Positions 15,698 through 18,244 of a stretch of 64,000 nt of DNA are shown one piece after another. The notes under the pieces were generated by a model. That model worked only from the letters and a program-made list of their open reading frames with translations. It made no database searches and was not told the origin of the DNA. The translations under genes and the position numbers were made by a program. Each line of letters begins with the position of its first letter. Position 1 is the stretch's first letter. The stretch comes from Ethanoligenens harbinense YUAN-3 (lineage in GTDB: Bacteria > Bacillota > Clostridia > Oscillospirales > Ethanoligenentaceae), in the NCBI RefSeq assembly GCF_000178115.2, contig NC_014828.1, positions 1,209,310 to 1,273,309 of the forward strand, in the 5' to 3' direction.

Positions 15698-15726
15698 TTG
15701 ACTATTTGCATCACTTGGGCTACAAT
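15698..15726 (+). promoter_or_regulatory. Promoter of the DUF1292 gene
   Basis: -35 TTGACT (15698-15703), 17-nt spacer, -10 TACAAT (15721-15726). Confidence 0.75.
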
Positions 15727-15822: not shown

Positions 15823-16143
15823 ATGCCGGAAGAACCCGAAGGAAAGCTGATCTCGCTTTTGGATGAAGAAGGCAATGCCCATGAGTTTGAGCATCTCGCC
15901 ACCGTGGAGTATGCCGGTGCGTCCTATGTGGCGCTGACGCCGGTGTATGAACGGCCGGAAGACCTGCTGGAAGGCGATGCTGAGCTGGTGATCCTGAAAA
16001 TCATCGAAGATGAGGAAAGCGGTGAGGAAATGCTGGCCGCCCTGGAGGATGATTCCGAGTTTGAGGCGGTTTCTCAGGAGTTTGAAAAAATTCTTGGGGA
16101 AGACTACGATTTCATCGAGGAAGAAGACCCGGGAAACCCTTAA
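15823..16143 (+). CDS. DUF1292 family acidic protein
   Basis: A 106-residue very acidic protein of the DUF1292/YrzB family. The domain (residues about 8-80) begins ISLLDEEGNAHEFEHLATVEYAGASYVAL and the tail is a run of Glu and Asp. In many Firmicutes this family sits with yrrK and yrzL; here it has its own promoter between a stress oxidoreductase and the 6S-like RNA. The function is unknown. AAGGAGG precedes the ATG. Confidence 0.88.
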   Translation: MPEEPEGKLISLLDEEGNAHEFEHLATVEYAGASYVALTPVYERPEDLLEGDAELVILKIIEDEESGEEMLAALEDDSEFEAVSQEFEKILGEDYDFIEEEDPGNP

Positions 16144-16177
16144 TGAACAGCCTCCGGCGATATACCATAAAATCCAC

Positions 16178-16206
16178 TTGAAATTTGCGGCTGGTTTGTG
16201 TATAAT
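16178..16206 (+). promoter_or_regulatory. Promoter of the 6S-like RNA
   Basis: -35 TTGAAA (16178-16183), 17-nt spacer, perfect -10 TATAAT (16201-16206), an unusually strong sigma-A promoter with no coding frame close behind it. Confidence 0.82.
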
Positions 16207-16212
16207 AGTCAC

Positions 16213-16465
16213 AGAAGCCCTGCTGCGTGCGTGATTCTCTGGCTATTATAACCCTACAAGCATATGAAAAGGGAATCTTTACTCCCGTGGAGGATTGCAG
16301 ACCTCCCGGCTTTGCCGGAGGAAGGGAGCGTGAACCCACGGGGAGATGCCCACCTGCAATTACGGCAGGTTATCATGTGCCCGGAACACGGCTTGGCGGG
16401 GATTCTATTGCACATTCGTCGTATTTTTCGGTTGCGCCGTCTGCTTTTGCAGGCGGCGTTTTTTA
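16213..16465 (+). ncRNA. Structured RNA, 6S RNA-like (alternatively a riboswitch leader)
   Basis: A strong promoter and a strong terminator bound about 250 nt with no gene. The RNA can fold as a rod. GUGC (from 16227) pairs with GCAC near 16410 and a CUCU/GGGG helix follows. Next is a large open bubble whose 3' strand holds a small CCG-GAACA-CGG hairpin. Then come an 8-bp helix (16260-16267 with 16373-16380), a 9-bp helix (CUCCCGUGG with CCACGGG(G)AG) and an apical hairpin (about 16301-16321). A side hairpin (ACCTGC/GCAGGT) sits near 16352-16370. A closing stem, central bubble with a small 3' hairpin, and apical arm are the hallmarks of 6S RNA, which binds the sigma-A polymerase. The alternative is a leader controlling the TauE pair, because the terminator lies about 85 nt before it. 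The 6S name is inferred from the fold, not from an alignment. Confidence 0.5.
16435..16464 (+). terminator. Terminator of the 6S-like RNA
   Basis: A 10-bp stem (16435-16444 with 16449-16458, one G-U pair), TTTT loop, then TTTTTT. Confidence 0.92.
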
Positions 16466-16551
16466 TGTGCTCTTTTTGCATATCCGTCGCCCCGGCATGG
16501 AAAGATGGACAAAGGATGCAAATCATCGGACGATGAACAGGGGGCGCAGAA

Positions 16552-16908
16552 ATGGGAAAGAAACAGTTGACGGGCGGCGCGGCCGGTTTTATCGCCGGCG
16601 TACTCAACGGCTTGTTGGGCGCCGGGGGCGGCACGGTTATCGTGCCCATGCTGGAAAAGTGCGGGCTGCCGCCTCAACGCGCGCATGCGACATCCATTGC
16701 CGTCATTGTGCCGCTGTGCGCGCTCAGCGCTGTTTTTTACCTCAAGAACGGTAGCTTTTCCCTGCGCGATTTGTTGTATTATGTTCCGGCTGGGTTTGGC
16801 GGGGCATATGCGGCTTCTCTGGTGCTGCCGCGAATCCCGGCCAAACTTCTGCGCCGAATTTTCGGAGTGTTCCTGCTCTATGCGGCCTATCGGCTGCTCA
16901 CGCGATGA
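16552..16908 (+). CDS. TauE/SafE family half-transporter (first half)
   Basis: A 118-residue protein with about four membrane helices, equal to one half of a normal TauE/SafE (DUF81) exporter of ~250 residues. The GFIAGVLNGLLGAGGGTVIVPML stretch, shown here in part as GLLGAGGGTVIVPML, is the family's repeat motif. TauE/SafE proteins are thought to export sulfite, sulfoacetate or related anions. GGGGG lies 7 nt before the ATG. Its stop overlaps the start of the second half (ATGA), so both are translated together and probably pair in the membrane. Confidence 0.85.
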   Translation: MGKKQLTGGAAGFIAGVLNGLLGAGGGTVIVPMLEKCGLPPQRAHATSIAVIVPLCALSAVFYLKNGSFSLRDLLYYVPAGFGGAYAASLVLPRIPAKLLRRIFGVFLLYAAYRLLTR

Positions 16909-17333
16909 GCGGGGCGCTGGTCGGCTGCCTGGCGGGATTCCTGGCCGGGTTTATCGGTGGGCTTGGCTTGGGCGGCGGTGGAGTGCTTGTGCTGTTTCTG
17001 ACACTGTTTGCCGGGGTAGGGCAGCTGCGTGCTCAGGGGATTAACCTCGCGTTTTTTATCCCGGTCGGGCTGTTTGCGCTTGTTTTCCATATCCGCAACC
17101 ATCTGGTGGATTTTAAGGCCGCGTGGCCCGCAATCTTGCTGGGGCTTGGCGGCGCGGCGTTGGGCAGCCTGATTGCCGGTCATATCGGTGCGCAGGCGGT
17201 GGGAAAATTATTCGGTGCGCTGCTGTTGGCGTTGGGCGGCTGGGAAGTGTTTGCGCCCCACAAGGAGAAAAAAGCCGCATCTCCGGCAGATCGGCCCGGC
17301 GCTGATGATTCCAAACGGAGAAAAAGTGTGTGA
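16905..17333 (+). CDS. TauE/SafE family half-transporter (second half)
   Basis: A 142-residue partner of the preceding gene, again about four membrane helices with the same repeat motif (GFIGGLGLGGGGVLVLFL). It adds a basic cytoplasmic tail of about 28 residues. The ATG overlaps the previous stop by 4 nt. Two half-size proteins replacing one internally duplicated transporter is a known but less common arrangement; the exported substrate cannot be told from sequence. Confidence 0.85.
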   Translation: MSGALVGCLAGFLAGFIGGLGLGGGGVLVLFLTLFAGVGQLRAQGINLAFFIPVGLFALVFHIRNHLVDFKAAWPAILLGLGGAALGSLIAGHIGAQAVGKLFGALLLALGGWEVFAPHKEKKAASPADRPGADDSKRRKSV

Positions 17334-17509: not shown

Positions 17510-17586
17510 CGAGATGTGGCTCAGTTTGGTAGAGCGCTGCGTTCGGGACGCAGAGGCCGCAGGTTCGACTCCTGTCATCTCGACCA
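17510..17586 (+). tRNA. tRNA-Pro (anticodon CGG)
   Basis: A 77-nt cloverleaf: acceptor stem CGAGATG/CATCTCG, D arm with GGTAGAGC, anticodon stem CTGCG/CGCAG around loop TTCGGGA (anticodon CGG, reading CCG), T arm with GGTTCGACTCC, A73 and an encoded CCA end (17584-17586). A truncated integrase gene ends about 220 nt downstream, pointing at it. Confidence 0.95.
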
Positions 17587-17635: not shown

Positions 17636-17691
17636 CTTTGCTTTGTACCCGCGATTATGTTATATCTTTTATGACTACACCTGCCATATAA

Positions 17692-17735
17692 AAACCGCCG
17701 ACATTTGGCTTAACAAGGTCATTTGTCGGCGGTTT
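17692..17735. repeat. 12-bp inverted repeat at island edge
   Basis: AAACCGCCGACA (17692-17703) and its perfect complement (17724-17735) around a 20-nt loop. The plus side continues TCGCTTTG. It may be a terminator or an end of the decayed element. Confidence 0.5.
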
Positions 17736-17751
17736 CGCTTTGTTCTGAAAT

Positions 17752-17783
17752 ATTCGTTTACCCTTTACAAAGGGTAAACGAAT
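17752..17783. repeat. Perfect 15-bp palindrome
   Basis: Positions 17752-17766 and 17769-17783 are exact reverse complements separated by 2 nt. There is no T-run at either side, so it is not a standard terminator. It lies between the tRNA and the integrase remnant. Confidence 0.6.
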
Positions 17784-17808
17784 GCTCGCGCCGCGAAGCG
17801 TGGTTTTT

Positions 17809-18244
17809 TTACTGCCCAGACAAAGACGGCAGGCCCTCGATGTACGCCTGTATCCGCTGGGCGCTGTCCTTCGCATCTGCTCTGTGACGTGGGCATACAC
17901 GTCCATCGTGAAGGCCACGGGGGCATGCCCGAGGTTTTCCGAAATGGTCTTGATGTCGTCCCCGGCCCGGATGGACGCCACCGCATAGGTGTGCCGGAGA
18001 TCGTGGAAGTGCATGTTCAGAAAGCCGACGGATTTCACAGTGCTTTTAAGAACCGGTAAAGTGTGCGCGAATACATATGGTGTTCCAGTTCATTTGTGAA
18101 CGCAAAGCCGCTTTCCAGACATACCGGTCCGGCCAGTAGCTTCCATTCGTTTTGTTGCTTGCGCTGCTCTCGCAGCAGGTTCATCACGAATGAGGGCCGT
18201 TCAGTAACGGGGATGCCTCTGACGCAGATCGGCATTTTTACCAA
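17809..18244 (-). pseudogene. Tyrosine recombinase (integrase) remnant
   Basis: Three frames together spell the C-terminal catalytic part of a Tn916/phage-type integrase. It reads LLREQRKQQ...ESGFAFTNELEHHMYSRTLYRFLK, then HFHDLRHTYAVASIRAGDDIKTISENLGH (in pieces) with the catalytic Tyr in MDVYAHV, then QRIQAYIEGLPSLSGQ and a TAA at 17809. A base appears lost from an A-run near 18044-18047, and a second frameshift lies near 17871-17878. The N-terminal arm and core-binding domains are missing upstream. The gene points towards tRNA-Pro, the usual layout for an element integrated at a tRNA 3' end, but no duplicated tRNA end was found. Confidence 0.85.

Follow-up and report, generated by a model that had tools for sequence, protein, structure and literature searches.

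The single 6S RNA gene of Ethanoligenens harbinense YUAN-3 and its linkage to a DUF1292 gene in related Clostridia

The structured RNA encoded on the plus strand at positions 16214-16406 of the window (the whole stretch of 64,000 nucleotides of Ethanoligenens harbinense YUAN-3 DNA analysed here) is almost certainly the product of the single 6S RNA gene (ssrS homologue) of this clostridial, Oscillospiraceae-like bacterium. 6S RNA, a mimic of an open promoter that sequesters RNA polymerase, is common among bacteria and present in nearly all of them. When the entire window was searched against all 4227 Rfam families, two matches exceeded their threshold, one tRNA and one 6S RNA (RF00013), the latter matching the covariance model end to end (model positions 1-187 of 187) with 74.5 bits, compared to a gathering threshold of 46.4, and an E-value of 7.7e-13. 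With a loose cut-off (up to E 10), no other family, riboswitches included, came near its threshold within 16100-16600. This search supports the proposal of a preliminary description, made from the letters alone, that the RNA is a 6S RNA. As the bit score lies below that of many other Firmicutes 6S RNAs, which reach about 120 bits, the 6S RNA of this clade is divergent; a clade model (R1) scores 154.8 bits on the same positions, R1 having been built partly from that sequence. A single copy was found in the genome (3,008,576 bases, one contig), and a second was detected neither with RF00013 nor with R1. No evidence contrary to 6S membership turned up, and judged by sequence the RNA is a genuine 6S RNA and an ordinary member of the known family, for which polymerase binding, pRNA synthesis and growth-phase behaviour would follow by homology. 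A search for small-RNA literature on Ethanoligenens returned nothing relevant.

The region 16213-16410 folds as a rod of -76.6 kcal/mol (z = -2.70, equalled by 2 of 200 shuffles), and with the terminator included the fold reaches -98.9 kcal/mol (z = -3.12, equalled by none of 200 shuffles). In the predicted rod a central bubble opens, with a small hairpin on its 3' strand, and an apical arm completes the structure, such that folding reproduces the shape put forward in the preliminary description. The small hairpin (ACCUGC/GCAGGU, 16352-16370, plus strand), in which 16352-16357 pair with 16365-16370, is present in both the minimum-energy and the centroid fold and corresponds to helix 9 of the consensus, where 92% of cells are paired and two of the three pairs show two-sided changes; a 3' bubble hairpin of the Firmicutes 6S-1 type is thus found in fold and consensus alike. 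For this consensus we used an alignment (A2) of sequences from 29 relatives, all in sense orientation, on which RNAalifold predicts 35 pairs; at 24 of these, both partners change. Paired cells amount to 88.5% compared to 73.3% in shuffled alignments, two-sided changes to 173 compared to 62 and the covariation score to 0.452 compared to 0.186 (each 0 of 500 shuffles), and all five covariation measures exceed every one of the 500 shuffles, which leave the relatedness of the aligned sequences to one another uncorrected. Sliding the partners by 1-3 columns makes the measures drop far lower, a control that retains relatedness but favours the consensus structure, itself derived from the same 29 sequences. 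The closing stem, the large central bubble and the apical arm are conserved with covariation, and sequence motifs are kept across the 29 relatives.

The 5' strand of the central bubble (16244-16257, plus strand) is the predicted template for pRNA synthesis, as judged from column conservation in the 29 relatives. Here a near-invariant A-x-C-C-x-A-C-A is found, with A16251 and C16253 identical in 29/29 sequences, C16257 and A16258 in 28/29, and C16254 and A16256 in 27/29. By projection, the pRNA is predicted to start opposite C16257 and to read 5'-GUAGGGUUAUAAUA, beginning GUAGGG. Across bacteria, pRNAs are marked by GG at positions 4/5 or 5/6 and by an adenine next to the start (PMC8414754); at the projected start site both hallmarks are found, with GG at positions 4/5 and an adenine adjoining the site. 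According to the fold, the bubble is further bridged by an additional 8-bp helix (16260-16380, plus strand), in which GCAUAUGA (16260-16267) would pair with UCAUGUGC (16373-16380). Over the 29 relatives these segments pair better with their own partners (mean -3.6 kcal/mol) than with swapped ones (mean -2.3 kcal/mol), a result matched in 0 of 5000 permutations, and the predicted helix is strongest in the window's own family, with -10.7 kcal/mol in the window itself.

The gene possesses its own near-consensus sigma-A type promoter (TTGAAA-17-TATAAT, 16178-16206, plus strand, 11 of 12 consensus positions), of which the -10 box ends 7 nt 5' of the start of the Rfam match, placing the probable transcription start around 16213. 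Four promoter-like sites are present in the 1.4 kb scanned, compared to 0.7 +/- 0.9 in shuffles. Downstream lies an intrinsic terminator (16434-16465, plus strand) with an 11-bp stem (16434-16459) containing 8 G-C pairs and followed by a T run; a terminator at most 110 nt 3' of 6S is found in 21 of 30 loci, compared to 12% in Markov-resampled sequence. The promoter, the strong terminator and the stretch without a gene between them were all noticed beforehand and are indeed there. The extent of the RNA had been given as 16213-16465; the 6S RNA proper covers 16214-16406 only and 16407-16465 is a 3' tail with the terminator. Transcription from 16178-16206 would yield an RNA of about 250 nt ending at the terminator (16465), and trimming probably shortens this RNA to about 193 nt. 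Another promoter-like site (TTGACT-17-TACAAT, 10 of 12, 15698-15726, plus strand) precedes the upstream gene, which codes for a DUF1292 protein of 106 amino acids (15823-16143, plus strand, PF06949, E 4.7e-20) and of which the stop lies 70 nt from 6S. A scan of the plus strand between DUF1292 and 6S revealed no terminator-like site, so that read-through from 15698-15726 into 6S is possible. The DUF1292 mRNA may also run into 6S and provide a second, longer precursor.

This DUF1292 gene is the conserved neighbour of 6S in the order. RF00013 was found in 48 of 59 relatives. Of the other 11, seven yield a 6S match with R1, the model built from A2, and the four genomes with neither match are incomplete or contaminated assemblies. 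Under strict filters RF00013 misses the 6S RNA of G008, G013, G018, G022, G023, G035 and G043, and R1 recovers all seven. In 46 of the 48 relatives with an RF00013 match, the DUF1292 gene ends just upstream of 6S on the same strand; in the two exceptions (G004 and G046, both of family f2) DUF1292 and 6S are on separate contigs and 6S has a strong promoter. Five of the seven 6S genes found with R1 only are located directly behind DUF1292 (G008, G018, G022, G035, G043), and in the other two (G013, G023) 6S and DUF1292 are on different contigs. The genes flanking the pair differ between families, so that a larger conserved operon around DUF1292 was rejected. In a sample of the class outside the order, both genes occur on the same strand and no more than about 250 nt apart in 15 of 74 genomes (assessed by eye). 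Such adjacency was seen in families f123, f126, f127, f134, f142, f144 and f158 of the class-wide samples, and as several families outside the order possess it, the linkage may have an early origin in the class. In a phylum-wide sample outside the order, no DUF1292-6S adjacency was seen by eye among the matches listed, where the two are usually found on different contigs or separated by thousands of bases. A search of literature available without subscription found no paper mentioning both 6S RNA and DUF1292.

To compare promoters, we considered 45 loci with readable flanks and counted a -10 box when at least 5 of 6 positions matched no more than 30 nt from the start of 6S. The DUF1292 stop lies 1-27 nt from the 6S start in 23 loci from 13 families (tight loci) and 33-38 nt away in three, while in the remaining 19, from 9 families, the gap is at least 40 nt or 6S lies on another contig than DUF1292. 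A -10 box is present in 18 of these 19 wide or unlinked loci (shuffled expectation 0.29) and in 7 of the 23 tight ones, no commoner than chance (shuffled expectation 0.27), a difference with a Fisher p of 2e-5, relatedness uncorrected. The window's own 6S gene is one of the wide loci, and with 11 of 12 matches its promoter ranks among the best of the set. For the tight loci, which have no excess of -10 boxes, the simplest reading is a single transcript comprising DUF1292, 6S and terminator from which 6S is cut out, and 6S may thus be cut from the DUF1292 mRNA in tight-gap genomes; a promoter within the DUF1292 frame, starting a longer precursor, is a possible alternative.

The same tight linkage, with a gap of 1-27 nt in 23/45 loci being too short for a promoter, could be taken to mean that the RNA mainly provides the DUF1292 mRNA with a structured 3' end, serving stability or termination, and has lost its polymerase-binding 6S role. 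We consider this very improbable, given that only 6S function requires the pRNA template and the central bubble, both of which are near-invariant, that the window's copy has its own near-consensus promoter, and that in the two family f2 genomes the RNA is found on a different contig from DUF1292 with a strong promoter.

Downstream of the 6S gene, TauE/SafE is encoded as two overlapping half-size genes of 118 and 142 amino acids (16552-17333, PF01925); the position before a TauE/SafE pair had led the preliminary description to keep a riboswitch as the alternative. That the RNA is a riboswitch or leader governing the TauE/SafE pair could be suggested by the 87 nt between the terminator end and the TauE start codon, an interval in which no promoter-like site was found, and by the presence of TauE 3' of the RNA in two same-family relatives (L013, L025). 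Over 30 loci, though, TauE follows 6S in these two and in one other only (L004, where it lies further away); elsewhere 6S precedes YchF, polyphosphate kinase, ThiF, a germination protease, MatE and others. With the same RNA preceding unrelated genes in relatives, with a full-length 6S match and no riboswitch match, and with DUF1292 rather than TauE as the conserved neighbour, the riboswitch reading falls and can be regarded as hardly credible. The split TauE/SafE arrangement is kept in same-family genome L025, and its first half also in L013; among named relatives, the protein closest to TauE (80% identity, L031) comes from an Oscillospiraceae bacterium. Further downstream lies a tRNA-Pro (CGG) gene (17510-17586), beside which a minus-strand open reading frame (17655-18038, 127 amino acids) resembles by eye the C-terminal part of a tyrosine recombinase (HDLRHTYA ... 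LGH ... Y) and may be left over from an element that inserted at tRNA-Pro. Rods of such shape may resemble each other, but a chance look-alike, or another kind of RNA that binds polymerase (e.g. Ms1), is hardly credible in view of the E-value of 7.7e-13 over the full library, with no other family above threshold there, and of the motifs conserved across 29 relatives.

Compared to characterised systems, the 6S RNA of the window resembles Bacillus subtilis 6S-1 (bsrA; PMC8876501, PMC8414754), sharing the closing stem, central bubble and apical arm of the Firmicutes type, the small hairpin pre-formed on the 3' side of the bubble and a pRNA with GG near positions 4-6. It differs in being present as a single copy, whereas B. 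subtilis has both 6S-1 and 6S-2, and in having DUF1292 instead of rarA as its neighbour. The predicted extra 8-bp helix resembles the central bubble collapse helix of B. subtilis (PMC8876501) but in another place, involving the 3' bubble strand as opposed to the P2 strand. E. coli 6S (ssrS) is matched end to end by the same RF00013 covariance model; in contrast to it, the 3' bubble hairpin of the window's RNA is predicted to form already in the free RNA, and whereas ygfA follows ssrS, here 6S is followed by an intrinsic terminator and TauE and preceded by DUF1292. The 6S RNA of Clostridium acetobutylicum, likewise a clostridial 6S with an asymmetric bubble, is strongly expressed and yields several processed bands by Northern blot (PMC3879012). 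Gene order near 6S is conserved in other groups as well, e.g. rarA-uspA in lactic acid bacteria (PMC8414754). 6S RNA itself, its maturation from longer precursors and the conserved gene order around it in other groups are already known.

By analogy with the family, the rod with its open central bubble would mimic an open promoter and bind the sigma-A RNA polymerase holoenzyme, and the bound 6S RNA would lower housekeeping transcription on nutrient exhaustion. On recovery, polymerase would use the 5' bubble strand as template, starting at about C16257, to make a short pRNA (5'-GUAGGG...), and this pRNA would refold the 6S RNA and free the polymerase.

The RNA of the window adds one further 6S RNA to the family, next to which the DUF1292 linkage is a side observation worth testing: a family without known function is linked to 6S across the order despite shuffled flanking genes, and many of the DUF1292-linked 6S genes of the order show no promoter. 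With rather more doubt than confidence, we propose that in about half of the order's examined genomes (13 families) 6S RNA lacks a promoter of its own and is cut from the 3' UTR of the DUF1292 mRNA, such that both form a conserved expression unit in which the supply of 6S would be coupled to expression of DUF1292, and DUF1292 might have a role in the pathway of 6S and RNA polymerase. If 6S is indeed cut from the DUF1292 mRNA, this would be an uncommon way of making a global transcription regulator, and if DUF1292 and 6S do form a unit, it would provide a first hint of the role of DUF1292.
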